Source: Prevotella sp. | Lineage (GTDB): Bacteria; Bacteroidota; Bacteroidia; Bacteroidales; Bacteroidaceae | Assembly: GCA_017561825.1 (NCBI GenBank) | Contig: JAFZBK010000020.1 | Coordinates: 1 to 32,669 of the forward strand | Direction of reading: 5' to 3' | Length of the DNA stretch: 32,669 bases | In this document: positions 1-12,352 of the stretch, one piece after another | Position numbering within the stretch: position 1 is the stretch's first letter | Layout: every line of letters begins with the position of its first letter | The notes under the pieces: model-generated | Told to the model about the DNA's origin: nothing | The model's database searches: none | Seen by the model: the letters and a program-made list of their open reading frames with translations, nothing else | Position numbers and translations under genes: made by a program

Positions 1-11
1 CCTTCAAAACC

Positions 12-135
12 CTTGTTTGTGCTGTATGCTATTCGAGCATTCATCTATAGGTATCAGTCAAACCCTCTTTATGCAAGCATAACCATTCTTTGACTAACAC
101 CTATAGATAGCCTTCGGCTTTACAGCACAACCAAG
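12..135. repeat. Cloverleaf-like imperfect inverted repeat
   Basis: The outer arms 12-26 and 121-135 pair at 14 of 15 positions. Inside them 43-52 pairs perfectly with 99-108, and the stem continues to 62/89 with two mismatches. Between the stems sit a left side hairpin (27-30 with 36-39) and a right side hairpin (109-112 with 116-119, loop TTC). The tip (69-73 with 78-82) forms its own hairpin. The fold is therefore a stem with two side arms and a tip on either strand. No T-run follows, so it does not look like a terminator. Its function is unknown; it could be a mobile-element end, a recombination site or a structured RNA. Confidence 0.7.
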
Positions 136-204
136 AAAAACAGCCGCTATCGCTATAAAACCGAAATAGTTTTGTTGTTTTGGGGGTTTTTCGATTCTGT
201 TGTT

Positions 205-330
205 GATGCCGTAAGGCAGTTTGCGATTCGTGTGTCAGGGAAGACAAGTGCACTTGTATTCACTGATGCACGGATTGAAAACAAGTGGGTGTTAACACAC
301 AGACAACAGAAGCGGGTTTTCATTGGTTTT
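205..330. repeat. Cluster of small palindromes
   Basis: This stretch holds a TGCC/GGCA hairpin near 208-219, a perfect 14-base palindrome at 244-257 (ACAAGTGCACTTGT) nested in a longer imperfect stem of about 229-276, and a perfect 10-base palindrome at 289-298 (GTGTTAACAC). The short ORFs here have no recognisable protein features. The density of symmetry suggests protein-binding sites or decayed mobile-element DNA; no function can be assigned. Confidence 0.45.
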
Positions 331-393
331 TGTTTCGTTTCAACATAAATGACGAAGATCAACCCAAATCTGCGAACTACAGGCTTAATGAAA

Positions 394-506
394 ATGTTAG
401 GTGTTATGTTAGGTGTTTGTTACCTCTTATGTTAGGTCTTTTGGCACCCTTTTTGCCTCTAAGTTGCTCTAAATAAAGCAATTAAGTTTTTTCAATGTTA
501 GGTCTT
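394..506 (+). repeat. Four direct copies of ATGTTAGGTSTT
   Basis: Copies lie at 394-405, 406-417, 429-440 and 495-506; the first two are in tandem and read GTT at the end, the other two read CTT. The intervals are irregular (12, 23 and 66 bases). The AGGTGTTA core also occurs, inverted, in the cloverleaf repeat at 96-103. They could be iterons or binding sites of a recombinase or regulator; the sequence alone does not decide. Confidence 0.55.
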
Positions 507-543
507 GAGGAAATTGCGAAAATTCTAATAAAATGAAGTTGGC

Positions 544-570
544 CAACTGTCGCAATTTTTGCGACAGTTG
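544..570. repeat. Perfect 12-bp hairpin
   Basis: Bases 544-555 (CAACTGTCGCAA) pair perfectly with 559-570 around a TTT loop. There is no adjacent T-run, and no gene ends just upstream, so a terminator role is unlikely. It may be an operator or part of a decayed mobile element. Confidence 0.6.
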
Positions 571-664
571 CAATAGAATTAAGGGAACGAAGCACATGTT
601 CCATTTTGGAAATAGTGCAACTGTTATGGATTCCTTGACTGTTCATCAAGAAGATAATAGAACA

Positions 665-806
665 GATACTTTCGCTCGACAAAACAAAAAAATCTGCTTT
701 TTCTTTGTTTTGTACTCGCTTATTCGAACTCTGGCTTCGCCGAATATACTTTCGTTCGGAAAAACTCAAATAAATTTGGTTTTTCTCTCACTTAATCGTA
801 TCTTTG
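665..806 (+). repeat. Two diverged tandem copies of a hairpin/promoter element
   Basis: Both copies begin with ATACTTTCG, have an A-rich/T-rich hairpin, and end with CTTA.TCG. Copy A starts at 666, with stem 679-688/704-713 (10 bp). Copy B starts at 745, with stem 759-765/779-785 and inner stem 767-771/774-778. The stems differ in sequence but both are kept, so the fold rather than the sequence appears conserved. Copy B ends in a Bacteroidota promoter. A spacer hairpin (721-726/741-746) separates them. Confidence 0.5.
775..806 (+). promoter_or_regulatory. Promoter of the Rpn-family remnant
   Basis: TTTG at 775-778 and TATCTTTG at 799-806 are separated by exactly 20 bases, the usual Bacteroidota sigma spacing. 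The start codon at 816 is only nine bases past the -7 element, so the message would have almost no leader. Confidence 0.6.
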
Positions 807-815
807 CAGAAGAAT

Positions 816-1121
816 ATGGAGAAACTGGACAGATATCCTTTCGAGATCAAGGACAAGGTCTTCAAGAAATTGATCGAGACCTGTGAGGTTTCCTCGTGGA
901 CACGTGAGGAGCGTATCAAGTATGACCATGCCTTGAAACAGTTCCGCGATACCCTGGCTGTGATGGAAGGACAGAAACAGGAAGGACGTGAACAAGGTAT
1001 TGAGCAAGGACGTGCTGAAGAAAAGCTTACTATTGCCCGCAACATGAAGGAGAAGGATATGGATGCTAATCTAATTGCTGAAGTAACCGGCCTTTCTCTG
1101 GAGGAAATAGCGGAATTGTAA
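816..1121 (+). pseudogene. C-terminal remnant of an Rpn-family PD-(D/E)XK nuclease/transposase
   Basis: The 101-residue product matches the tail typical of Rpn/YhgA-like PD-(D/E)XK nuclease-family transposase proteins of Bacteroidales. It has a 'FKKL..T.EVSSWT.EER..YD.AL..FRD' helical segment, a charged E/G/Q-rich repeat stretch (about residues 54-67), and a final 'MKEKDMDANLIAEVTGLSLEEIAEL'-type helix-turn-helix tail. The whole nuclease core, about 200 residues in full-length members, is missing. ATG at 816 was chosen over the TTG at 804, because the latter lies within the -7 promoter element. The direct join of a promoter to the tail suggests an internal deletion. I infer that it is not a functional nuclease, though a short protein may still be made. 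Confidence 0.7.
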
Positions 1122-1144
1122 TCAAGTTATTTATGTAATAAATA

Positions 1145-1175
1145 AGGGGCGACATCTATGTGTGATGCTGCCCCT
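1145..1175. terminator. Possible bidirectional terminator hairpin
   Basis: AGGGGC at 1145-1150 pairs with GCCCCT at 1170-1175, and CATC (1153-1156) with GATG (1164-1167). It lies between the converging Rpn remnant and the BspA-like gene. On the minus strand it is followed by TTATTTATT, so it fits best as the end of the BspA-like transcript; the plus side has no T-run. Confidence 0.4.
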
Positions 1176-1218
1176 CATTGTATGCGTATATAAATGTTTA
1201 ATGATAAATATTTAATGT

Positions 1219-4013
1219 TTAATGTACTACGGCTCTGCCATTATGAATATAGATTCCTTTCTGCGTAGGCTTCCCACTCAGCTTCCTACCATCAATCGTG
1301 AACCACGAGTCACTTGCATTATCAATTGTCAATTGTCCATTGTCAATTTGAGGCGCAGCCTCATTAAGGCCAGTGGTGATACCCTCATCGGGCAAGGCAA
1401 CGATGGTGCCAAAATTCTTCCATACATCAGCATTGCGGTACAAGCTTATCGAGGATGCAGGGACATGCAAGGTGACGTTGGAGACGTAGTGGCCAAAGAC
1501 ACCACTGCTTCCTAACAATGGTGGTGTCTTGGCATAAGAATAGACATCTGTTACAACGTCGCCTGTTGTGAAATTTTCTTCTTCAATAGAAGACACGTTT
1601 CGACCAATTATTATTGTTTTTAGGTTATGATTATTGAGGATGGCATATTCCTTAATGGTTGTAACCTGATTGGGAATGACAAGAATCTCAGGAGAAGTAC
1701 CACTAAAAGCTTTTCTACCAATGATTTTTACATCTTCAGGAATCACCGTATTCTTACATCCTGAGATGAATGTTTTCGTGGCTGTCTCAATGATGGCATT
1801 GCAGTTTCCATTGGAATTATAATACGGATTACCACTTTCCACTTGGATAGATGCAAGATCAAAACACAATGGGAATGGATTACCGTCTATCTCCTTTACA
1901 CTACGAGGTATTGTAACAGAAGTTATAGCAGAATAAGCAAAAGCACTCTCTTCGAGATACTCCAATCCTTCATGAAACGTTACGGTTGTTAAGCTATTGC
2001 ATCGAAATGCATGTAAATAAATCCTCTTTACGGAACTTGGAATATCAACTTTTGTTATCTTTGCACTACTAAATGCATTTCGACCAATGGTCTCAATCCC
2101 GTTATTGAGCGTTAAGGATACTAAGGATCCGCATGAAGAGAATGCACTATAATTAATCGTCTTTACAGAGCCAGGGATATTCAATGAAATCAGGCCAGTT
2201 TGTTTAAACGATTCACGCCCAATGGTCTCTATTCCATCACCCAGCACCACTGATTTCAGTGATGTACAGCAGTAAAAAGCTTCTTCGCCGATGGTCTTGA
2301 CTGTTCCAGGAATTGTCACAGACTTGATCTTACCTGCACTTGTATATACCCATTTCTTTGTGTCATAGTCCCAGTAACCACTTTGGAATGCCCTGTCTGC
2401 AATGGACGTGACCGTATAGGATGGAGTCATTGGTAGTGTGGAGGGTATCACAACATTCTCGTCCATCTCATCCTCGTTGAAACCCGTCACGGAGGCGGTG
2501 CCATCGTACTTCAGGAAGTAGCGGATACCCTTGTACCAGAAGTGCTCACCCGTGAGTTCTATGGTGCTCTTGAAACCGCTCCAGGGGGCGGTGCTACTGT
2601 AGGCAGACTGCGAAGAGGGCGGCACCTCGAGGGTGGCATTACTGATGTTCTCCCAGTCGTTCGGTGCAGCAGGCGGTGTCTCGGCGGTGATGCGGACGTT
2701 CTGCAGGCTGATACAGCCCTTGAAGGGGTTGCTGTCGATCGTAGCAACAGACTTGTCCATGAACACATTCACGAGGTTCTTGCAGTCCTTGAACGCACAG
2801 CTGCCGATATAGCTGATGTCGGTGGGGAGATCAATCGTACTCATATCGCATTTCTCGAACGCAAACTCGCGAATATTGGTTACGTAATACGTGGAGCCAT
2901 TGTAAGCAATGAAATCGGGGATATGCACGTTGGGAGGCAGAACGCTCGCATCGAAGCTCACCACGGAGGCTGTGCTCGTTTCCTTCAGCTGCATCGTGAT
3001 TCCACCGAAGGTCTTCGTGTCCACTGTCGTGGGAATGGGTTTTACATCAAACTTTTTCCAGGTAGCATGTGCCTTGTATGCATCAACAGAAGCCGAGGGA
3101 ACATAGAGCGTGACTTTCGACAAGTCAAGACTGCCGAAGGAGGGCCTGTTCGCTTTAACTGTAGGCGGCGGGCGGCACAGCTCACACGCTTCAGCTTGGT
3201 GCAGCCGGCAAAACAGTACGAACCAAGTTCTTCCAGCGAACTGGGAAGGATCAGCTCTTCCATCTCGCAGTTCCTGAATGCGGCATGACTGATCGTCTTG
3301 ACACCGCTGATCACCTGAACAGTATGGCACTTGGCATAGATATACGTATTGCCTTTAATGGTACCATCGCTGCCAGCGTATGATGCACGCAGATTCATGG
3401 TCGGCAACCACATCCTTCGCTGGTTGTCGTATTGGTAGAGACGCTTGGCATAGTAGAGAGGGTTGCTTTGGTTAACGGTACCGTCATTGTCGTTGGTAAA
3501 GTTAATGCTGCCGTACGTGTCCAGGTTATGGGCATAGACGGCCTGGAGACCTGTGCAATTGTAAAAGGCTGATTTGCCCACGGTGGTGAGCGCTGAATAG
3601 ATGTGGAACTCAGTCAGCTTGGAACAGCCCGAGAAGGCGTACTGGCCGATAGTGGTCACATTGGTATAGCCGGAGACCTCCTCCAAGGCCGTACAGCCGT
3701 TGAAGGCATTTTCGCCGATGGAGGTGATCTGACTTGTCATCGTTACCTTCGTCAGCAATACGCAGCCGTAGAAGGCTCTTGCGCCAATGGCAGTGACACG
3801 CACCGTGCCGTCGAAGTTGATGGTAGAGGGGATGCTCACTTCGCCAGTGTACTTGCCACCGTTTTGGGGGGCTATCACTGTGGCGGTTTTGGAACTAATG
3901 TCAATATCATACCAGATACTGCCCACTAGGTTTGGGTCACCAGCTTTGATTGTCGTCGATAACGTTAGCAGGATTGCAACAACGAATAGTTTTCTAAATG
4001 GTTTCATTTTCAT
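1219..4013 (-). pseudogene. BspA-like leucine-rich-repeat surface protein, frameshifted
   Basis: The start at 4013 gives a signal peptide (residues 1-24, ending TTIKA) followed by LRR_5/TpLRR repeats of the 'I..IG..AF.GC..L..V.IP' kind. Reading frame is lost near 3165-3175 within GCGGCGGGCGGC; a -1 change there joins the N-terminal part (4013 to about 3170) to the second frame (about 3170 to 1219), which resumes at '..RPSFGSLDLSKVTLYVPSAS' and carries many more repeats. The restored product would be about 930 residues. The C-terminus has an 'IDGRKLSGKPTQKGIYI.NG' signature common in exported Prevotella proteins. BspA family members are outer-surface adhesins. The frameshift may be real, phase-variable or a sequencing error. 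A heptamer repeat is translated as IDNGQLTIDN near the C-terminus. Confidence 0.85.
1317..1350 (-). repeat. Heptamer tandem repeat inside the BspA-like gene
   Basis: Read on the minus strand, about four units of ATTGACA (one ATGGACA, one ATTGATA) are translated as part of the linker before the C-terminal signature. The same heptamer occurs in the epimerase-like gene at 9960-9993. Confidence 0.7.
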
Positions 4014-4033
4014 AAGTCTTTGGTAATCTGCCG

Positions 4034-4041
4034 CAAAGATA
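4034..4041 (-). promoter_or_regulatory. -7 element of the BspA-like gene
   Basis: CAAAGATA (TATCTTTG on the minus strand) lies 21 bases before the start codon. No good TTTG is seen at the -33 position, so this is a half-supported promoter. Confidence 0.5.
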
Positions 4042-4154
4042 CAAATAATATCGTTAATTACCGTTACCCCCCCTTAAAAAGAGTTAAAGGTGTAGATGAA
4101 CATGAAATGTGAATTAAAAATCATGCTCAAAACAAACAAAAAAGTGGCAAAATG

Positions 4155-4186
4155 TTTGTTCAGTTCCGAAAAAAGTTATAATTTTG
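4155..4186 (+). promoter_or_regulatory. Promoter of the aromatic amino acid operon
   Basis: TTTG (4155-4158), 20 bases, then TAATTTTG (4179-4186). Transcription should begin near 4193, giving a leader of about 190 bases before the first enzyme gene. Confidence 0.75.
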
Positions 4187-4212
4187 CAGCCGAAAATAGA
4201 AAAAAAGACAAT

Positions 4213-4290
4213 ATGAGTAAGCAGTACGCATCTTTCTATTACTTTTATTTTTACTTTGCAGGGCACTGTGAAGCGGGAAGTCGTATATAA
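4213..4290 (+). CDS. Phe/Tyr leader peptide (attenuator)
   Basis: This is a 25-codon ORF, MSKQYASFYYFYFYFAGHCEAGSRI split as MSKQ-YASFYYFYFYF-AGHCEAGSRI. Nine of the 11 codons at 4225-4257 are Tyr (five) or Phe (four). It lies between a Bacteroidota promoter and a rho-independent terminator, directly upstream of prephenate dehydratase. Its tail codons (4266-4277) contain the 5' arm of an antiterminator. This is the classical layout of ribosome-mediated attenuation, as in the pheA and pheST leaders of enterobacteria. A ribosome stalled for charged Phe- or Tyr-tRNA leaves the tail free. A ribosome that reaches the stop at 4290 covers it. I infer that the peptide itself has no other role. Confidence 0.9.
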   Translation: MSKQYASFYYFYFYFAGHCEAGSRI

Positions 4291-4341
4291 AAAATTGAAA
4301 GATTGAAAGATTGAAAAATTAAATAAGGCTCCGCTTCACAG
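4266..4341 (+). promoter_or_regulatory. Antiterminator of the Phe/Tyr attenuator
   Basis: CTGTGAAGCGG (4266-4276) is perfectly complementary to CCGCTTCACAG (4331-4341), and one G.U pair extends it. The second arm is the 5' half of the terminator stem, so the two folds exclude each other. The long loop contains an A/T-rich octamer repeat (GATTGAAA units, about 4291-4320). Confidence 0.85.
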
Positions 4342-4366
4342 ACAAGTGAAAGCGGAGCTTCTTTTT
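4325..4366 (+). terminator. Attenuator terminator
   Basis: The stem GCTCCGCTTCAC (4328-4339) pairs with GTGAA-A-GCGGAGC (4346-4358, one bulged A) around a six-base loop, and CTTTTT follows at 4361-4366. It lies 16 bases before the prephenate dehydratase start, with no gene ending upstream except the leader peptide, so it must act on leader transcription. Confidence 0.9.
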
Positions 4367-4381
4367 AGATAGTGTGAGGAT

Positions 4382-5212
4382 ATGAAGAGAATTGCCATAC
4401 AAGGACTGATCGGGTCGTTCCACGATATTGCGGCTCATCAGTATTTCCCTAACGAGCAGGTACAGCTGCTGTGCTGCTCCACCTTCGAACAGGTGTTCGA
4501 GAACCTCAAGAACGACCCGACTGCCATTGGCATGCTGGCCATCGAGAACACCATAGCAGGCAGTCTGCTGCACAACTACGAGCTGTTGCGCGACTCAGGT
4601 ACGACGGTGGTGGGTGAGCACAAGCTGCATATCAGTCACTGCATCTGCTGTCTGCCCGACGACAACTGGGACACGATCACAGAGATCCACTCCCACCCCG
4701 TGGCCCTGATGCAGTGCCGACAGTTCCTGGCACAGCATCCCAACATCAAGCATGTGGAGGCAGAAGACACGGCAGGTAGTGCCAAGATGATTGCAGAGGG
4801 CGGTTTCAAGGGATGGGCAGCCATCTGTCATGCTGATGCCGCCAGACTCTACGGACTGAAGGTGCTGGAGGATCATATCGAGGATAACAAGCATAACTAC
4901 ACGCGTTTCCTCGTGGTGTCGAATCCCAACAAGGCCGACATGCTCCGTCCGCTGACACAGGCGAATAAGTCGAGCATCGTCTTCTCCCTCCCTCACGAAG
5001 AAGGGAGTCTGTCGCATGTACTGGCCATCCTCTCATTCTATAGGATTAACCTAACCAAGATCCAGTCACTGCCCATCATCGGAAAGGAATGGGAATACTT
5101 GTTCTACGTGGATGTGATGTACGATGATCTGACTCGCTACCGACAGTCGATCGATGCCATCATCCCACTGACAAGGGATCTGAAGATTCTGGGAGAGTAT
5201 GAGGGACATTGA
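4382..5212 (+). CDS. pheA: Prephenate dehydratase
   Basis: This enzyme converts prephenate to phenylpyruvate, the committed step to phenylalanine. The 276 residues match the stand-alone PDT-ACT form. The N-terminal PDT domain starts with 'IAIQG..GSFH..AA' and has 'GMLAIENTIAGS' and the catalytic-site 'NYTRFLVV' (Thr-Arg-Phe) motif at about residues 172-179. The C-terminal ACT domain (about 196-276, 'IVFSLPHEEGSL..VL..L....INLTKIQSLPI') is the usual Phe-binding feedback site. There is no chorismate mutase domain here; that activity sits two genes downstream. It is the first enzyme gene after the attenuator, so its expression should track Phe/Tyr-tRNA charging. The ATG at 4382 follows the terminator by 16 bases. 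Confidence 0.95.
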   Translation: MKRIAIQGLIGSFHDIAAHQYFPNEQVQLLCCSTFEQVFENLKNDPTAIGMLAIENTIAGSLLHNYELLRDSGTTVVGEHKLHISHCICCLPDDNWDTITEIHSHPVALMQCRQFLAQHPNIKHVEAEDTAGSAKMIAEGGFKGWAAICHADAARLYGLKVLEDHIEDNKHNYTRFLVVSNPNKADMLRPLTQANKSSIVFSLPHEEGSLSHVLAILSFYRINLTKIQSLPIIGKEWEYLFYVDVMYDDLTRYRQSIDAIIPLTRDLKILGEYEGH

Positions 5213-5331
5213 CCATTGAACATTGAACATTGAACATTGAACTTTTGGAGCAGCGAGAGCCAACATGCTCGCATGATTGGCCGAGTCGTGACAAAAGTCA
5301 ACGAAGTTAACATTAAAGATTAAACGTTAAA
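5213..5331. repeat. Intergenic heptamer repeats and hairpin
   Basis: About four units of ATTGAAC occur at 5213-5240, and three TTAAAGA/TTAAACG units at 5306-5330. Between them is an imperfect hairpin (GCCAA 5259-5263 with TTGGC 5277-5281, plus CAT/ATG inside). There is no promoter match, so the gap is probably transcribed as part of the operon. Confidence 0.5.
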
Positions 5332-5332
5332 G

Positions 5333-6517
5333 ATGAGAGATATGATAGTGCCGGCTGAGCGATTGAAGCTCGTGAGTGAATACTATTTCAGTAGGAAACT
5401 GAAGGAGGTGGCACAGATGAATGCCGAAGGGAAGGATATTATCAGTCTGGCCATTGGCAGTCCTGACATGCCCCCTTCGCAGCAGACCATCGACAAACTC
5501 TGTGAGGTGGCCAAGAACCCGAATGCACATGGTTATCAGCCCACGGTGGGAATACCTGAGTTGCGGAACGCCATGGCCGACTTCTACAAAAGATGGTACA
5601 ACGTGGATTTGGATCCGCAGACCGAGATACAGCCACTCATCGGCAGTAAGGAGGGTATCCTGCATGTCACTCTCGCCTTTGTAAACCCAGGCGAACAGGT
5701 GCTGGTGCCGAATCCGGGCTATCCCACCTATACCTCTCTGAGCAAGATCCTGGGTGCAGAGATCGTAAACTACAACCTGTTGGAGGACAACGGGTGGCAG
5801 CCTGATTTCGAGGCACTGGAGAAGATGGATCTGACTAAGGTGAAACTGATGTGGACCAACTATCCCAACATGCCGACAGGTGGTGCCGCAAGGATGGAGA
5901 CATACGAGCGACTGGTGGCGTTTGCACAGAAGCATCAGATCGTGGTGGTAAACGATAACCCCTACTCTTTCATCCTGAACGAGAAACCGATGTCGTTGCT
6001 GCAGGTGCCCGGTGCCAAAGACTGCTGCATTGAGTTCAACTCCATGAGTAAGAGTCATAACATGCCAGGATGGCGTGTGGGTATGCTGGCCACCAATGCA
6101 CAGTTCGTGCAGTGGATACTGAAGATCAAGAGTAATATCGACAGCGGTACGTTCCGTGGTATCCAGCTGGCTGCAGCAGAGGCTTACCGCAATGATCCCG
6201 AGTGGCACAGGGAGGCCAATATCGAGACCTATGGCAGACGACGCAGATATGCTGAGGAGATCTTGAAGGTGCTGGGATGCTCCTTTGATCCCAACCAGGT
6301 GGGCATGTTCCTCTGGGGAAAGATTCCGGCACACTACAGTAATGCGGAGGAGCTGACTGAACGGGTGCTCCATGAGGCCCGCGTGTTCATCACCCCCGGC
6401 TTCATCTTCGGCAGCAACGGCGAACGCTACATCCGCATCTCGCTTTGTGCAAAAGAAGAAAAGCTTGAAGCAGCACTAAGGAGAGTTAAGAAGACCCTCC
6501 CCCTACCCTCCCTATAG
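5333..6517 (+). CDS. PLP-dependent aminotransferase, probably aromatic
   Basis: This is a class I/II fold-type I aminotransferase of 394 residues. Lys240 in 'SMSKSHNMPGWRVG' is the PLP Schiff-base lysine. 'NYPNMPTGG' (176-184) is a variant of the usual NYPNNPTG, Asp208 in 'VNDNPYS' should hold the pyridine nitrogen, and the Arg in 'RYIRIS' near the end is the usual carboxylate-binding arginine. It sits between prephenate dehydratase and DAHP synthase/chorismate mutase, which suggests transamination of phenylpyruvate and 4-hydroxyphenylpyruvate. The sequence itself also resembles LL-diaminopimelate and aspartate aminotransferases, so substrate is inferred from context. The last residues (TLPLPSL) and the stop codon are encoded by a copy of the G/C-rich hairpin repeat. 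Confidence 0.9.
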   Translation: MRDMIVPAERLKLVSEYYFSRKLKEVAQMNAEGKDIISLAIGSPDMPPSQQTIDKLCEVAKNPNAHGYQPTVGIPELRNAMADFYKRWYNVDLDPQTEIQPLIGSKEGILHVTLAFVNPGEQVLVPNPGYPTYTSLSKILGAEIVNYNLLEDNGWQPDFEALEKMDLTKVKLMWTNYPNMPTGGAARMETYERLVAFAQKHQIVVVNDNPYSFILNEKPMSLLQVPGAKDCCIEFNSMSKSHNMPGWRVGMLATNAQFVQWILKIKSNIDSGTFRGIQLAAAEAYRNDPEWHREANIETYGRRRRYAEEILKVLGCSFDPNQVGMFLWGKIPAHYSNAEELTERVLHEARVFITPGFIFGSNGERYIRISLCAKEEKLEAALRRVKKTLPLPSL

Positions 6518-6523
6518 GGAGGG
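6493..6523. repeat. G/C-rich hairpin repeat, copy 1
   Basis: GACCCTCCCCCTA is followed by an 18-base perfect palindrome at 6506-6523 (CCCTCCCTA/TAGGGAGGG). The stop codon of the aminotransferase (6515-6517) lies inside the palindrome. It belongs to the same family as the copies at 6561-6623, 7689-7826 and 7862-7930. Confidence 0.65.
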
Positions 6524-6527
6524 CAAT

Positions 6528-6535
6528 TACCTTTG
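6528..6535 (+). promoter_or_regulatory. Possible internal promoter (-7 element)
   Basis: TACCTTTG at 6528-6535 fits the Bacteroidota -7 consensus, but no TTTG is found 19-21 bases upstream. If used, it would give the DAHP synthase gene an input independent of the attenuator. Confidence 0.3.
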
Positions 6536-6560
6536 CAAATCAGATAAATAATAACAACAT

Positions 6561-6623
6561 AAGTAGAATCCTCCCCACAAGCATTCTACTCTCCCCCTTT
6601 AGGGGGAGCGGGGAGGGGGTCCG
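6561..6623. repeat. G/C-rich hairpin repeat, copy 2 (upstream of DAHP synthase)
   Basis: The first hairpin pairs GTAGAAT with ATTCTAC; the second is CTCCCCC/GGGGGAG around TTTA. It ends two bases before the ATG at 6625. The copy at 7862-7930 has the same two-hairpin order directly upstream of prephenate dehydrogenase. Confidence 0.65.
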
Positions 6624-6624
6624 T

Positions 6625-7689
6625 ATGGAATTAGAATTAGAACCATTGAAATTGCCGAGTGACAATGAACGTCCCTTCGTTATTGCAGGCCCCTGCTCTG
6701 CTGAGACGGAAGAACAAGTGATGACCACAGCACGCCAGCTGGCCATGAAAGGCTGTCATAACTTCCGCGCTGGCGTATGGAAACCCAGAACCAAGCCCGG
6801 CGGCTTTGAAGGACATGGCGAGATTGCCCTCCCCTGGATGAAGCAGGTGAAAGATGAGACAGGCATGCTGGTATCCACCGAGGTGGCTACCCCTGAGCAT
6901 GTGGAGCTCTGTCTGAAATACGGCATCGACATCCTCTGGATAGGTGCCCGCACCAGTGCCAACCCCTTCGCCATGCAGGCCATTGCCGACGCTTTGCAGG
7001 GTGTTGACGTTCCCGTTTTCGTGAAGAACCCCATCAATCCCGACCTGGAACTATGGATCGGTGCACTGGAGCGTATCAACCAGGCAGGTGTTAAACGACT
7101 GGGTGCCATCCACCGCGGCTTCTCTTCCTACGACAAGAAGATCTACCGCAACATGCCGATGTGGCAGATTCCCATCGAGCTGCGCCGTCGTATCCCTGAA
7201 CTGCCTATCATCTGCGACCCGAGTCATATTGGCGGACGTCGCGAACTGATTGCTCCGCTATGCCAGCAGGCCATGGACCTTGGCTTCGACGGACTGATCG
7301 TGGAGAGTCATTGCGAGCCTGACAAGGCATGGAGTGATGCCAAGCAGCAGGTGACACCCGATGTGCTCGACTTCATCCTCAGTCTGCTGATCATCCGCGA
7401 TGAGAAGACCACCACCGAGGGAATCAGTCAGCTGCGTAAACAGATTGATGAGCTCGACAACGACCTGATGGAACTGCTCTCCAAGCGCATGCGTGTGTGT
7501 CGAGAGATCGGTCATTACAAGAAAGAGCATAACATGACCGTGTTGCAGCCCACCCGCTACAACGAGATCCTGAACAAGCGTGGTGCGCAGGGCACGCTCT
7601 GCGGTATGGATAGTGACTTTGTCAAGGTGGTCTTCGAGGCTGTACACCAAGAAAGTGTGCGACAGCAGATGGAAATAATCAATAAATAA
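6625..7689 (+). CDS. DAHP synthase / chorismate mutase fusion
   Basis: This bifunctional enzyme condenses phosphoenolpyruvate and erythrose 4-phosphate to DAHP (entry to the shikimate pathway) and rearranges chorismate to prephenate. The N-terminal domain (about 1-260) is the KDSA/AroF-like type I beta synthase, with 'FVIAGPCSAE', 'RAGVWKPRTKPGGFEG', 'ICDPSHIGG' and 'IVESHCEPDKA'. The C-terminal domain (about 265-350) is an AroQ-type chorismate mutase with 'LRKQIDELDNDLMELLSKRM' and 'REIGHYKKEHN'. The 354-residue length matches known fusions of this order in Bacteroidota. It supplies the mutase lacking from the separate prephenate dehydratase and dehydrogenase of this operon. The start lies directly behind a two-hairpin repeat. 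Confidence 0.95.
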   Translation: MELELEPLKLPSDNERPFVIAGPCSAETEEQVMTTARQLAMKGCHNFRAGVWKPRTKPGGFEGHGEIALPWMKQVKDETGMLVSTEVATPEHVELCLKYGIDILWIGARTSANPFAMQAIADALQGVDVPVFVKNPINPDLELWIGALERINQAGVKRLGAIHRGFSSYDKKIYRNMPMWQIPIELRRRIPELPIICDPSHIGGRRELIAPLCQQAMDLGFDGLIVESHCEPDKAWSDAKQQVTPDVLDFILSLLIIRDEKTTTEGISQLRKQIDELDNDLMELLSKRMRVCREIGHYKKEHNMTVLQPTRYNEILNKRGAQGTLCGMDSDFVKVVFEAVHQESVRQQMEIINK

Positions 7690-7826
7690 AAGACTCTCCC
7701 CCTAACCCCTCCCTGAGAGGGAGGGGAGTAGTTTAAAGACTCTCCCCCTTGCCCCTCCCTAGGAGGGAGGGGAGTGGTTTAAAGACTCTCCCCCTTGCCC
7801 CTCCCTAGGAGGGAGGGGAGTGGTTA
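7689..7826. repeat. Three tandem 46-base hairpin repeats (copies 3-5)
   Basis: Units begin at 7689, 7735 and 7781, each as AAAGACTCTCCCCCT and each with a CCCCTCCCT/AGGGAGGGG hairpin, then GTGGTTT or GTAGTTT. The second and third units are almost identical; the first differs at several bases. There are no unique spacers, so this is not a CRISPR array. It begins at the stop codon of the DAHP synthase fusion. Confidence 0.75.
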
Positions 7827-7861
7827 CCTCTATTATAAAATTAATAAGAATATTAACAAGG

Positions 7862-7930
7862 AAGTAGGATATTCCCCCATAAGCATTCTACTCCCCTCCA
7901 TTTAGGGAGGGGCCGGGGGTGGGTCTCTTT
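7862..7930. repeat. G/C-rich hairpin repeat, copy 6 (upstream of prephenate dehydrogenase)
   Basis: GTAGGAT pairs with ATTCTAC (one G.U), and then TCCCCTCC pairs imperfectly with GGGAGGGG around an A/T loop. The order and the distance to the start codon parallel the copy at 6561-6623. Confidence 0.65.
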
Positions 7931-8725
7931 ATGAGAATAATCGTTTTGGGTGCAGGCAAGATGGGTAGTTTCTTCATCGACCTGCTGAGTTTCGACCATG
8001 AGGTGGCAGTGTTTGAGCGCGATCCTAAACGGATGCGGTTCACCTATAACTGTCAGCGGTTCACACAGCTGGAGGAGATCAGGGAGTTCAAGCCCGAACT
8101 GCTCATCAATGCCGTTACACTGAAATATACCATCCCCGTGTTCGAGCAGGTGATTCCCTACCTGCCCAAGGAATGCATCATCAGTGATATTGCCAGTGTA
8201 AAGACCGACCTGAAGGAGTTCTACGAGAAAACAGACATGCGCTATGTTTCTACGCACCCCATGTTCGGTCCTACGTTTGCTAACCTGCAGCAGCTGAGCG
8301 AGGAGAACGCCATCATCATCAGCGAGGGCGACTATATGGGACGGATCTTCTTCAAGGACCTCTACCAGAAGCTTGGTCTGAACATCTACGAATATACCTT
8401 CGAGGAGCATGACAAGACCGTGGCGTACTCGCTCTCTATCCCGTTTGTCTCTACCTTCGTGTTCGCAGCCGTGATGAAACATCAGGATGCACCGGGAACC
8501 ACGTTCAAACGACACATGCGTATCGCCAAGGGGGTGCTCAACGAAGATGACTACCTGTTGCAGGAAATCCTTTTCAACCCCTACACCAGCGGTCAGGTAT
8601 CACAGATCCGCACGGAGCTGAAGGAGCTTCTGGAGATCATCGAGAACAAGGATGCCGAGGGGATGAAGGGGTATCTGACCAAGATCAGGAACAATGTCAA
8701 ACGTGACATACAAATAGAGAAATAA
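7931..8725 (+). CDS. tyrA: Prephenate dehydrogenase
   Basis: This enzyme oxidatively decarboxylates prephenate to 4-hydroxyphenylpyruvate with NAD(P)+, the tyrosine branch. It is 264 residues long and starts with the Rossmann motif 'IIVLGAGKMG' (GxGxxG, residues 2-11). 'ISDIASVKTD' follows, and then the substrate-site 'STHPMFGPT' with the conserved His-Pro. The all-helical dimerisation domain follows. ATG at 7931 was preferred over the GTG at 7919, because the Rossmann strand begins right after it and the GTG lies in the repeat. It is the fourth enzyme of the attenuated operon, so both Phe and Tyr branches are under one leader, consistent with the mixed Phe/Tyr codons there. Confidence 0.93.
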   Translation: MRIIVLGAGKMGSFFIDLLSFDHEVAVFERDPKRMRFTYNCQRFTQLEEIREFKPELLINAVTLKYTIPVFEQVIPYLPKECIISDIASVKTDLKEFYEKTDMRYVSTHPMFGPTFANLQQLSEENAIIISEGDYMGRIFFKDLYQKLGLNIYEYTFEEHDKTVAYSLSIPFVSTFVFAAVMKHQDAPGTTFKRHMRIAKGVLNEDDYLLQEILFNPYTSGQVSQIRTELKELLEIIENKDAEGMKGYLTKIRNNVKRDIQIEK

Positions 8726-8726
8726 C

Positions 8727-9668
8727 ATGCACCTTACTTATCTAATACTTGGAATATTCACCTTTGTGGAACTGAACTGCGAGAATCTCTTCGATGCCAA
8801 CAAGGACAGTGTCAAAGATGATACGGAATACACGGCGGAGAGTCTGCGCAGATGGACGCGTACCCGCTACTGGAACAAGCTGAACAGCATCGCTCAGGAG
8901 ATTATCTCCTGCGGCGATGACAGCAGCGGATGGGTGTTACCCGACTTAGTGGCACTCTGCGAGGTAGAGAATGATACGGTGCTCAACGATCTGGCTCATC
9001 GTTCGTTACTGCGGAATGCGGGATATGAGTATGTGATGACCGATAGTCCTGACCTTCGTGGTATTGACGTAGCCCTGCTGTACAGTCCGTTTTCCTTCCG
9101 ACTGATTCATCATCATGCTCTCCGCATCCCATCTATGGAAAAGATGCGTCCTACCCGCGACATCCTGTATGTCAGCGGACAGCTCATCAACGGTGACACC
9201 TTGCATGTCTTTGTGGTGCATGCTCCCAGTCGTTTTGGCGGAGAACGGGCCACGCGACCACATCGTCTGGCCGTAGCTGACCGTCTGATGCAATCCATTG
9301 ACTCCATCCGAACGCTCTCTCCTGCAGCGAGTATCGTGGTGGCAGGGGATTTCAACGACCGCTACGACAGTCCTGCCTTAGTCAAACTGTGTCAGCATCA
9401 GCTCACGAATATCTCACAGGGAGTAAAAGGCAGTCATGGTGCCAAGGGAACGTATAAATACCAAGGAGAATGGGAGAGCATTGATCATATCCTTGTAGGC
9501 GGGAACCTCCTACAGACCTTTCAGCAATGTTATATCCATGATGCGCCCTTCCTGTTGGAAGAGGATGAACAATACGGGGGAGCCATGCCCCGAAGAAACT
9601 ACCGAGGATATAAATACAATAAGGGCTACAGCGATCATCTGCCGCTGGTAGCCCGGTTCAAGATCTGA
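8727..9668 (+). CDS. Endonuclease/exonuclease/phosphatase (EEP) family hydrolase
   Basis: The 313-residue EEP-fold protein has 'FVELNCENLFD' (metal-site Asn and the first strand), 'LVALCEVEN' (metal-binding Glu), 'VVHAPSRFGG', 'VVAGDFNDRYDSP' (catalytic Asp/Asn) and the terminal 'YSDHLPLVARF' (catalytic Asp-His). Members cleave phosphodiesters in nucleic acids, lipids or inositol phosphates; the substrate here is unknown. A short hydrophobic N-terminus (residues 4-14) may be a weak export signal or simply the first beta strand. It starts one base after the prephenate dehydrogenase stop, so it is in the aromatic operon, with no obvious metabolic link. Its 3' end overlaps the converging epimerase-like gene by 34 bases. 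Confidence 0.85.
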   Translation: MHLTYLILGIFTFVELNCENLFDANKDSVKDDTEYTAESLRRWTRTRYWNKLNSIAQEIISCGDDSSGWVLPDLVALCEVENDTVLNDLAHRSLLRNAGYEYVMTDSPDLRGIDVALLYSPFSFRLIHHHALRIPSMEKMRPTRDILYVSGQLINGDTLHVFVVHAPSRFGGERATRPHRLAVADRLMQSIDSIRTLSPAASIVVAGDFNDRYDSPALVKLCQHQLTNISQGVKGSHGAKGTYKYQGEWESIDHILVGGNLLQTFQQCYIHDAPFLLEEDEQYGGAMPRRNYRGYKYNKGYSDHLPLVARFKI

Positions 9669-10729
9669 ACGATGCGCTCTGCGGTTCGCCCATCCCAACG
9701 GTCAGGCAAGCTGCTCTTCTTCCAGTTGCCGTCAAGCATGTCGCGCAAAGCCTTTCCCAACTGCTCTGCATCTTCTCCTACCAGTACGTTCGTGCCTTGT
9801 TTGACGGTCTCGATATGCTCCGTATAACTGTTCAACGTGATGCAGGGAACACCGTTGAAGGTGGCTTCTTCGGCCACGTTACCACTGTCGGTGATCACGC
9901 CAAGGGCATGTGAGGTGAGGTAGCCGAATTCAAGGTATGGGAGGGAAGGAACTACCTTTAATTGACAATTGACAATTGACAATTGACAATTGATAGAAGA
10001 TACGACTTCGAGGGCTTTTCCTCGGAGGGGTGCGATAACGGGAATGCTTGCTTCTGCTATCGCTTGGATCATCTTCTTCAGGTTCTCCTGGTCTTCCAAC
10101 AAGGCCTTGCGGTTCATCGTGAAGACAACGTATTTGCCTTCTTCCAGTTGCAGCTCATCCATGATGGCCGGACGCTGCCAGCGGGAGTGGTTGAATCGCA
10201 GGTTGTCGATGAGGATATTTCCCACACGATACACACGACTCTGCTCGGCTCCCTCGCGGTTGGTGATGCTGCTGTTGCTCACACCTGCCGTGAAAAGAAG
10301 GTCAGATAGACCATCGATGACCAGTCGGTTCACCTCCTTAGGCATCTTGATGTCGAAGCTGCGGGTGCCAGCCACCAGATGGGCCAGAAGGATGCCACGC
10401 TTCTTGGTGACAATAGCGGCTGCCATCGTGGAGGCTAAATCATCTACTACAACCACCACATCTGCTGAATGCTCCTCCAGATAACGGTCGAAAGCGCCCA
10501 TCACCTGACCCGTGATCTCGTTCAGACGGGTGCTGTCAACACCTAAATAAACATCTGGGCGAGATATCTGCAGATCATCGAACAACGATCCTTCCAAGGT
10601 AGGATCCTGCTCAGAACCAGCATAAACCAACTGATAATCCATATCGTCCGTACCCTGAATGGCACGAATCAACGGTGCTACCTTGATGAAGTTCGGGCGC
10701 GCACCAGCAACAATGCATACTTTTATCAT
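9635..10729 (-). CDS. UDP-GlcNAc 2-epimerase-like protein with degenerate active site
   Basis: The 364-residue protein has the overall plan of the non-hydrolysing UDP-N-acetylglucosamine 2-epimerases (WecB). It keeps 'GARPNFIKVAPLI' at the N-terminus, 'DDLASTMAAA' for the usual GDT.ST, 'MPKEVNR' for MPEE.NR, and 'TDSG.V.EEA'. Key positions are changed: the family HVEAGLR reads HLVAGTR (Glu to Val), the TGHR/THR..EN site reads TMNRKAL (His to Asn), and the R..TERPE segment reads NSYTEHIE. Epimerase activity is therefore doubtful; a different sugar nucleotide or a non-catalytic role is possible. The residues INCQLSIVNCQL are encoded by a heptamer repeat. The start at 10729 follows a strong promoter; an upstream in-frame ATG at 10780 lies in promoter DNA. 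Confidence 0.8.
   Translation of the reverse strand: MIKVCIVAGARPNFIKVAPLIRAIQGTDDMDYQLVYAGSEQDPTLEGSLFDDLQISRPDVYLGVDSTRLNEITGQVMGAFDRYLEEHSADVVVVVDDLASTMAAAIVTKKRGILLAHLVAGTRSFDIKMPKEVNRLVIDGLSDLLFTAGVSNSSITNREGAEQSRVYRVGNILIDNLRFNHSRWQRPAIMDELQLEEGKYVVFTMNRKALLEDQENLKKMIQAIAEASIPVIAPLRGKALEVVSSINCQLSIVNCQLKVVPSLPYLEFGYLTSHALGVITDSGNVAEEATFNGVPCITLNSYTEHIETVKQGTNVLVGEDAEQLGKALRDMLDGNWKKSSLPDRWDGRTAERIVQILNRATSGR
9960..9993 (-). repeat. Heptamer repeat (CAATTGT)n inside the epimerase-like gene
   Basis: Nearly five units of a perfect 7-base repeat are translated as a roughly 12-residue insertion just before the conserved 'PSLPYLEF' segment. As 7 is not a multiple of 3, gain or loss of one unit would shift the frame. 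Confidence 0.8.
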
Positions 10730-10745
10730 ATCGTTTCTATTCTTT

Positions 10746-10835
10746 GATGGCAAAGATACAAAGAAACGGGTAAAATGCAAAAAGGAAAAGCGTTTTTCTT
10801 TGCAATTTCATTTATTTCTTTGTATCTTTGCCATC
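10746..10835. promoter_or_regulatory. Palindromic bidirectional promoter
   Basis: Bases 10746-10766 and 10815-10835 form a perfect 21-bp inverted repeat, and the inner part continues with imperfect symmetry. Each arm contains a complete promoter. The minus strand has TTTG (10778-10781), 19 bases, then TATCTTTG (10751-10758) for the epimerase-like gene. The plus strand has TTTG (10799-10802), 20 bases, then TATCTTTG (10823-10830) for the VanZ-like gene. Confidence 0.75.
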
Positions 10836-10850
10836 TGAAAACTACGGGAT

Positions 10851-11282
10851 ATGACACAAAGGCAGAAACTGCTACTGGGAACCATGCTGCTGTTGGTGGG
10901 CGGAATAACGTATCTGCTGTTCAGACCAAGTACGCTGCTGATGTTCCATGTGGCTGATTATCTGGGACTTTCGCCAGTCATCGACAGGATCAGGGAAGGC
11001 ATGACAAGCGCATGGCTTCCTGAATTTATCGTCTATAGTCTGCCAGGCGCATTGTGGTCGGCTGCCTATCTGCTAACTGCAGATTGCTTCCTCCAAGGAC
11101 AGTCGGTTAAAACCCGTCTCATGATCACCAGCATCATTCCACTCATCGGGGCTGTATCTGAGCTGCTCCAGCTGACGGGTTTGTTGCCTGGCACATACGA
11201 CGGGTGGGATCTGCTGTGCTATCTGATTCCCTATCTTCTTTACTTAACGTGTATCACTAAAAACAAACTTATATGGATTTGA
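10851..11282 (+). CDS. VanZ-like small membrane protein
   Basis: The 143-residue protein has about four hydrophobic segments (roughly residues 8-25, 57-78, 90-105 and 120-137). The last two surround 'SELLQLTGLLPGTYDGWDLLCYLIPYLLY', which resembles the 'E..Q...P.R..D..D...N' core of VanZ-like proteins. The function of most VanZ-like proteins is unknown; the namesake affects teicoplanin sensitivity. It overlaps the AAA+ gene by ten bases, so the two are translationally coupled and probably cotranscribed from the promoter at 10799-10830. The family assignment is tentative. Confidence 0.65.
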   Translation: MTQRQKLLLGTMLLLVGGITYLLFRPSTLLMFHVADYLGLSPVIDRIREGMTSAWLPEFIVYSLPGALWSAAYLLTADCFLQGQSVKTRLMITSIIPLIGAVSELLQLTGLLPGTYDGWDLLCYLIPYLLYLTCITKNKLIWI

Positions 11283-12352
11283 AAGAAAAATTCTCGAGTA
11301 AGCAACTCACCATTATCATCATCGCCATCTGTGCCGTGTTCATCTTCTTAGGTATCTTCACCATGGTTATTGGTAACGAAGCGGAAAGCAGTGGTGAGAA
11401 GTATGTCACTGTTGACGAAAACGACGATAAGGGCAGTGATGTAAGCGGACGGAAGTATAAGTTCGACAGTAGAAATGACCGCTCCGAAGGGGGAGCAGAA
11501 GAAGACAGTCTGACAGTGAACAAGCCCATTGAGGGCGATCCCTATCAGGAACTCGACGAACTGATTGGTCTGGAATCCGTGAAGGAGGAGGTTCGCTCAC
11601 TGGCAAACTTCGTAAAGGTGCAGAAGATGCGTGAGGAGAAAGGACTGAAGAGTCCGAAGCTGAGCTACCACCTGGTGTTCACAGGCAGTCCGGGTACTGG
11701 TAAGACCACCGTGGCACGTATCGTAGCACGTATCTATAAGGATTTGGGAATATTGAAGAAAGGTCATCTGGTAGAGACCGACCGCTCAGGATTGATTGGT
11801 AAATATGTTGGTCAGACGGCTCCCAGAGTGAATGCGGCCTGCGACTCAGCCCTGAACGGTGTGCTGTTTATTGATGAGGCATATGCACTGACGCAGAGCG
11901 AGAGCTCGCAGGACTATGGCGCAGAGGCCGTGGCAACACTGCTGAAGCGTATGGAAGACGACCGTGACAAGCTGGTGGTGATCGTAGCTGGATATACCGA
12001 CGAGATGAAGAAATTCATTGATACGAACCCAGGACTGCAGTCGCGCTTCAATCGCTATATCAATTTCCCCGATTATTCCTCTGGTGAGCTGTATGAGATC
12101 TTCCGTCTATACTTGAAGAAAAACGAATATACCATTACCAAGGAAGGTGCCACCATGCTGCAGCAAGGCTTGGAGCATGCTGTTCAGAACAAAGACCGCA
12201 ACTTCGGTAATGCCCGTTATGTGCGTAACCTCTTCGAGAAGGCCATCCAATGTCAGGCCAACCGTCTGTCGAAGACAAAGAATGTCGGCGACGATGAATT
12301 GGTTGAACTCACCGCCACCGACATCAAGTCAGCTTTTCAGGAAATGAGATAG
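11273..12352 (+). CDS. Membrane-anchored CbbX/SpoVK-type AAA+ ATPase
   Basis: The 359-residue protein has one N-terminal transmembrane segment (about 11-33), then a polar, acidic linker (about 35-90), and one AAA+ domain. Visible motifs are Walker A GSPGTGKTT (138-146), the pore-loop-like 'GLIGKYVGQTAPRV', Walker B VLFIDEA (197-203), 'NPGLQSRFN' with the likely arginine finger, and 'GNARYVRNLFEKA' as sensor 2. The CbbX/SpoVK family remodels protein complexes (CbbX reactivates Rubisco; EccA works in type VII secretion). A membrane anchor suggests a cell-envelope substrate. Its partner may be the overlapping VanZ-like protein, but the sequence does not show what it acts on. It converges with the SPFH gene with only 7 bases between stops. 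Confidence 0.88.
   Translation: MDLKEKFSSKQLTIIIIAICAVFIFLGIFTMVIGNEAESSGEKYVTVDENDDKGSDVSGRKYKFDSRNDRSEGGAEEDSLTVNKPIEGDPYQELDELIGLESVKEEVRSLANFVKVQKMREEKGLKSPKLSYHLVFTGSPGTGKTTVARIVARIYKDLGILKKGHLVETDRSGLIGKYVGQTAPRVNAACDSALNGVLFIDEAYALTQSESSQDYGAEAVATLLKRMEDDRDKLVVIVAGYTDEMKKFIDTNPGLQSRFNRYINFPDYSSGELYEIFRLYLKKNEYTITKEGATMLQQGLEHAVQNKDRNFGNARYVRNLFEKAIQCQANRLSKTKNVGDDELVELTATDIKSAFQEMR

Follow-up and report, generated by a model that had tools for sequence, protein, structure and literature searches.

A predicted Phe/Tyr leader-peptide attenuator ahead of the pheA operon in Prevotella and its relatives in the class Bacteroidia

Leader-peptide attenuation is a textbook mechanism, and the Phe leader attenuator of Escherichia coli also precedes pheA. 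In the classical geometry of such systems, region 1 lies on the control codons and region 2 falls between the codon run and the stop codon. Bacteroidota, a dominant phylum of the gut and rumen, have ribosomes that make little use of Shine-Dalgarno sites, and to our knowledge the regulation of amino acid synthesis in this phylum is little charted. Published work on the phylum includes a table that lists Bacteroid-trp as a cis-regulatory motif (Weinberg 2010, PMC2864571), a passage describing strong clues for leader-peptide attenuation before amino acid biosynthesis operons of Flavobacterium psychrophilum (PMC9723704), and a passage on sORFs of B. thetaiotaomicron that are reminiscent of leader peptides (PMC7366714). 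PMC4833913 refers in one passage to a survey that Lopatovskaya et al. published in 2010. The locus described here lies in a 32,669-nt stretch of Prevotella sp. DNA (contig JAFZBK010000020.1, assembly GCA_017561825.1), which is called the window below; the host genome is a 2.98-Mb draft, 88% complete.

Anatomy of the leader and of the operon behind it

A preliminary description of this DNA had placed a promoter, a 25-codon leader with nine aromatic codons out of 11, an antiterminator, and an overlapping terminator ahead of a prephenate dehydratase gene, and had read them as a Phe/Tyr attenuator of an aromatic operon. We located all of these parts in the window (Table 1), with the coordinates of the leader, the aromatic run, and the antiterminator proving exact on the sequence. 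The TTTG element lies 20 nt upstream of the TAnnTTTG element, and these two motifs make up what we take to be the promoter consensus of the phylum. A generic scan of positions 1 to 12000 flagged neither the leader terminator nor a sigma-70-type promoter at the leader. In relatives (sampled as given below), TAnnTTTG occurred within 110 nt 5' of the leader start at 126 of 129 genus loci, at 47 of 58 elsewhere in the order, and at 15 of 23 in the rest of the class, compared with 256 of 4,200 shuffles, an enrichment that supports the proposed promoter. The preliminary description had also remarked on A/T-leader start sites and the lack of a Shine-Dalgarno site, and this pattern extends beyond the window: a Shine-Dalgarno-like motif (AGGA, GGAG, or GAGG between −16 and −4 of the leader start) was found before only 5 of 210 leaders (3/129 genus, 2/58 order, and 0/23 class loci). 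The A content of the same stretch was 58%, 47%, and 41% in the three groups, respectively.

Table 1. Features of the leader and the operon (positions in the window)
Feature	Position	Strand	Details
Bacteroidota-type promoter	4155..4186	+	TTTG 4155-4158 and TAATTTTG (TAnnTTTG) 4179-4186
Leader peptide ORF	4213..4290	+	ATG 4213, 25 codons, TAA stop 4288-4290; peptide MSKQYASFYYFYFYFAGHCEAGSRI; A-rich upstream; no Shine-Dalgarno-like site
Control codons	4225..4257	+	Phe or Tyr codons fill 9 of the 11 positions
Region 1, 5' arm of anti-antiterminator	4254..4261	+	CUUUGCAG; overlaps last Tyr/Phe codons
Region 2	4266..4277	+	CUGUGAAGCGGG; partner is region 1 (via 4266-4273) or region 3
Region 3, 3' arm of antiterminator	4330..4341	+	4330-4339 shared with terminator 5' arm
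Intrinsic terminator	4326..4366	+	Stem 4326-4339/4346-4360; T-run TTTTT 4362-4366
pheA, prephenate dehydratase	4382..5212	+	276 aa; PF00800, E = 5.2e-57
Class I/II aminotransferase	5333..6517	+	PF00155
DAHP synthase fused to chorismate mutase	6625..7689	+	PF00793 and PF01817
tyrA-like prephenate dehydrogenase	7931..8725	+	PF02153, E = 9.1e-10; ATG 7931, listed ORF from GTG 7919

The pairing of region 2 with region 3 comprises 12 pairs, the last of them G-U (−16.7 kcal/mol as a hairpin by computed folding, as for the energies that follow), and the terminator stem comprises 14 pairs with a single bulged A at 4349 (3:4 duplex, −23.2 kcal/mol). Region 2 itself sits between the aromatic run and the leader stop codon. 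We also found a fourth part, absent from the preliminary description: the 1:2 pairing of 4254-4261 with 4266-4273, a hairpin of −7.6 kcal/mol that completes the classical 1:2, 2:3, and 3:4 architecture. When the full-length RNA was folded with region 2 left unoccupied, 3:4 remained the preferred pairing, so antitermination would have to be kinetic; for an RNA ending at 4345 with no ribosome, folding favored 2:3 over 1:2. The 189-nt leader was more stable than its shuffles (z = −2.4), 3 of 200 of which folded equally well, and the antiterminator score of the window was reached by none of 200 shuffles.

The mixture of Phe and Tyr codons had been said to fit an operon carrying both branches of the pathway and its entry enzyme, and the Pfam assignments of pheA, the DAHP synthase/chorismate mutase gene, and tyrA agree with this. 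The four genes, separated by gaps of 120, 107, and 241 nt, are probably transcribed together. Downstream genes in relatives were sought by tblastn with the proteins of the window (E value cutoff of 1e-3; loci with at least 4 kb downstream). The aminotransferase, DAHP synthase/chorismate mutase, and tyrA genes were found behind pheA at all 73 genus loci, and DAHP synthase followed pheA at 30 of 32 loci elsewhere in the order and at 21 of 25 from other orders (124/130 overall). Within the operon of the window, three tandem 46-nt, nearly identical, GC-rich palindromic repeats occupy 7689-7826, between the DAHP synthase gene and tyrA, and similar GC-rich palindromes were seen by eye within 6490-6624. 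On the other side of the leader, two overlapping minus-strand ORFs of 703 and 323 aa span 1219-4013; their matches to leucine-rich-repeat adhesin models fell far under the cutoffs, and the two may be pieces of a single gene for a surface protein, broken by a shift of frame.

Distribution and conservation in Bacteroidia

We compared pheA upstream regions at three taxonomic depths within the class. The genus sample held 150 loci (70 plus the best 80 of 416 named matches), of which 131 were distinct and one of these was cut by a contig end; among those best 80, the closest named relatives of pheA are Prevotella and Prevotellaceae, many labeled as rumen or ruminant-gut assemblies. Of the genomes with a pheA match, 67 of 68 from the order and 27 of 32 from the class outside the order were sampled. 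Loci with identical 200-nt upstreams were removed before counting (245 to 224), and two cut by contig ends (L059 and L195) were left out, giving 222 informative Bacteroidia upstream regions. From other classes of the phylum, we took the 28 best-scoring loci, with similar sequences kept.

Conservation of the aromatic leader in Bacteroidales relatives had been set beforehand as a test that could overturn the attenuator reading. An aromatic run, defined as at least 6 aromatic codons in 11, was present in 211 of the 222 regions (129/130 in the genus, 59/65 in other genera of the order, and 23/27 in other orders of the class), whereas the 28 pheA loci from other classes yielded 0. Only 42 of 1,110 shuffles passed the same rule, and the same count for eight other residue groups gave between 0 (H/Q) and 98 (I/L) of 222. 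For the window itself, 9 aromatic codons of 11 were never reached in 1,000 dinucleotide shuffles of the 450-nt upstream region, the maximum being 7, in 2 shuffles. The 211 leaders contain 902 F, 899 Y, and 40 W codons, and 208 start with ATG. Trp codons were present in 9/129 genus, 17/59 order, and 12/23 class leaders; their presence would be in keeping with an operon that includes the shared entry enzyme of the pathway.

By this rule, 11 of the 222 informative loci were leaderless. At seven of them (L151, L162, L178, L230, L246, L250, and L261), a same-strand ORF of at least 80 aa ends no more than 80 nt before the pheA start or overlaps it, compared with 1 of 211 leader loci; because of this close upstream ORF, pheA is probably not the first gene there. 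The other four (L146, L203, L218, and L226) had no upstream ORF of at least 80 aa near pheA, and L226 shows, by eye, a shorter aromatic run and a terminator. Separately, no pheA match was found in 20 of 149 same-genus genomes. Since 17 of these 20 are among the 105 genomes that are at least 90% complete, this observation suggests that Phe synthesis has truly been lost in part of the genus.

To follow the element within genomes, 30 sequences from the genus were used to build a covariance model, which was searched in 24 same-genus genomes and 16 of other families. The 19 same-genus genomes in which pheA was matched each gave exactly one hit, adjoining pheA, and the 5 lacking a pheA match gave no hit. 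Several of the 19 had fed the model and match by construction, and the informative results are the single copy and the five blanks. Because only 1 of the 16 genomes from other families was matched (G037, E = 7e-4), the model is genus specific and uninformative on wider spread. A pattern of seven F/Y codons, used to seek other Phe/Tyr runs, did not exceed its backward control in 10 of 14 genomes and was therefore uninformative.

A terminator between the leader and pheA was called by script (stem plus T-run rule) at 202 of 211 leader loci; the leaders lacking one by this rule (8/129 genus and 1/59 order) were excluded from the antiterminator tests and from parts of the 1:2 tests. The best complement of the terminator 5' arm exceeded shuffles (P ≤ 0.05) at 120/121 genus, 46/58 order, and 21/23 class loci, and no more than 20 nt lay between the last aromatic codon and the start of region 2 at 121/121, 53/58, and 22/23. 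When antiterminator partners were exchanged among the 81 loci outside the genus, own partners scored a mean of 20.2 and exchanged partners 14.6 (standard deviation, 0.33; highest, 15.9; 10,000 permutations). The own partner was strictly best at 16 of these loci, within the best 5% at 38, and in the better half at 74. This exchange test, our main evidence on the point, argues for selection on the 2:3 pairing.

Within the genus, the 1:2 pairing is well kept. All 8 pairs form at 120 of 129 loci in the best of 48 registers, and 117 of 129 loci choose that same register. With the register fixed, 384 of 448 cells were paired across 56 distinct sequences (shuffle mean, 357; highest of 1,000 shuffles, 370), and sliding it by 1 to 3 bases reduced the paired cells to 169 to 251. 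On a 30-row alignment, 99.2% of 1:2 cells were paired and 13 had changed on both sides, compared with none in 500 shuffles; all 13 fall in one single pair, and the numbers of double-changed pairs and of pair types were not above shuffles. When the sequence ahead of region 2 was shuffled for comparison, the 1:2 hairpin reached P ≤ 0.05 at 71 of 121 genus loci. Hairpins of at least 6 bp were found at 111/121 genus, 18/53 order, and 4/22 class loci. Since 1:2 is sporadic outside the genus, the class-wide core consists of leader, antiterminator, and terminator. The test of covarying alternative stems that the preliminary description had proposed favors its reading, with qualifications: 1:2 is kept with double changes beyond shuffles in the genus, and 2:3 partners are matched across the 81 outside loci. 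However, the 1:2 changes are confined to one pair, that stem is not general outside the genus, and 2:3, which is nearly invariant within the genus, showed no covariation beyond shuffles there. An extra hairpin was seen right behind region 2, around the leader stop, at 48 of 129 genus loci (e.g., L020, L042, and L080) and not in the window; its sequence is mostly AAGTTG...CAACTT, with TCGTTG...CAACGA at four loci, and it would fall within the antiterminator loop.

Mode of action and alternative explanations

The locus combines an aromatic leader ORF, an intrinsic terminator, an overlapping antiterminator just behind the control codons, and a 1:2 hairpin. This anatomy, together with the comparative evidence, points to attenuation and supports the earlier reading. 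The element is very likely a ribosome-mediated transcription attenuator, with charged tRNA-Phe and tRNA-Tyr as its signals and the pheA-aminotransferase-DAHP synthase/chorismate mutase-tyrA operon as its target. Leader translation, ribosome stalling, the switch between helices, the response to Phe and Tyr, and termination are all predicted from the same features. Under a shortage of Phe or Tyr, the ribosome would stall within the aromatic run and mask region 1; region 2 would then be free to pair with region 3 once the latter is made, before region 4 exists, which would keep the terminator from forming and let transcription continue into the operon. With both amino acids plentiful, the ribosome would reach the stop codon and mask region 2, and the 3:4 terminator would halt transcription near 4366. 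If the leader is left untranslated, 1:2 would form first and likewise permit 3:4.

Three other explanations were weighed. The leader could act as a functional small protein or arrest peptide whose nascent chain senses aromatic amino acids, and its tail is indeed recurrent (C-x-A or C-x-V at 120 of 129 genus loci). However, the DNA encoding this tail is region 2, and the RNA element is the more constant of the two: the tail departs at 9 of the 129 loci, by our reading of the rows 8 of them through another frame or an early stop, whereas region 2 keeps its four-base core (GCGG or GTGG) at all 129. In addition, F, Y, and W interchange within the run, tails differ among families, and the leader had no NCBIfam match up to an E value of 10 and no Pfam match up to 1. 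We consider a peptide function very unlikely. An extremely slight chance is given to a metabolite-binding riboswitch (for Phe, Tyr, or chorismate) or a T-box that senses its ligand or tRNA directly, with the short ORF being incidental. Such elements share the alternative terminator and antiterminator folding before biosynthetic operons. However, no Rfam family reached its gathering score in the window, and a permissive search of 4140-4400 returned 11 matches, all of them below gathering and Phe_leader among them. The linker between regions 2 and 3 is variable in the 30-row alignment, and what is conserved, at 211 of 222 loci, is the run of F/Y codons.

That a plain intergenic terminator lies behind a chance aromatic ORF, with no regulation at all, we regard as extremely unlikely. 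The region is A/T rich, which makes TTT and TAT codons cheap, but runs of this kind were rarer in shuffles, in other residue groups, and in the 28 loci from other classes. Moreover, antiterminator and terminator partners are matched at the 81 loci outside the genus, and each of the 19 same-genus genomes has one copy next to pheA, neither of which fits a chance ORF.

The Phe/Tyr attenuator is expected to turn on the pathway under scarcity of Phe or Tyr, and the same arrangement is found through much of the class. We lean modestly toward the view that it is ancestral to Bacteroidia and belongs to a set of attenuators (Phe/Tyr, His, Thr, and Trp) controlling amino acid synthesis. If this is true, transcription and translation would need to be closely coupled under Shine-Dalgarno-independent initiation in these bacteria, because the leaders start without a Shine-Dalgarno site. 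The element would permit a direct test of ribosome-polymerase coupling in Bacteroidota and, since it occurs at nearly all pheA loci examined, would serve as a reporter of aromatic amino acid starvation.

Relation to known leaders

Searches of the open-access literature, judged from listings and passages, turned up no account of a Bacteroidota attenuator of the Phe/Tyr type. To this extent, the remark in the preliminary description that such a system is much less familiar in the phylum stands; it needs qualifying in that Bacteroid-trp is already a named family of Bacteroidota and that His- and Thr-rich leaders also occur in the class. In raw counts made without a shuffle control, an ORF with at least 4 His in 11 codons preceded hisG in 18 of 26 Bacteroidia genomes (L281-L306) and in 0 of 5 of the genus of the window, and one with at least 5 Thr in 11 codons preceded the aspartokinase/homoserine dehydrogenase gene (thrA) in 7 of 20 genomes (L337-L356) and in 0 of 6 of that genus.

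Bacteroid-trp (RF01692) shares its phylum with the window leader but differs in having Trp codons, trp genes, and a different sequence. It matched 7 of 60 relatives, 5 of them above the cutoff, and an ORF with three consecutive Trp codons was present at all 7 matched loci; the genes behind these matches are presumably trpD or trpB. No match to it (gathering score, 49 bits) was found in the window or in the 88% complete genome that holds it. The passage on attenuation in F. psychrophilum (PMC9723704), again from the same phylum, gives no operon names, and pheA may be among the operons meant. More distant likenesses are uORFC-13-1 before aroF in Acholeplasma, which a passage of PMC8632094 presents as a uORF with at least one Phe codon tied to a shikimate gene, and a pair of candidate uORFs that contain F and Y and are tied to shikimate genes, given in passages of PMC6429828 that do not name the organism.

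The Phe leaders of E. coli pheA and pheST (Phe_leader, RF01859) likewise combine control codons in a leader ORF with a set of alternative helices; against this family the window scored 18 bits (E = 1.1), compared with a gathering score of 55. Unlike the E. coli leader, the Prevotella leader has no Shine-Dalgarno-like site, leaders of its type carry Tyr as often as Phe, and the genes behind it extend to the Tyr branch and the entry enzyme. The Phe/Tyr leader is a new and widely conserved member beside the known leader-peptide attenuators.
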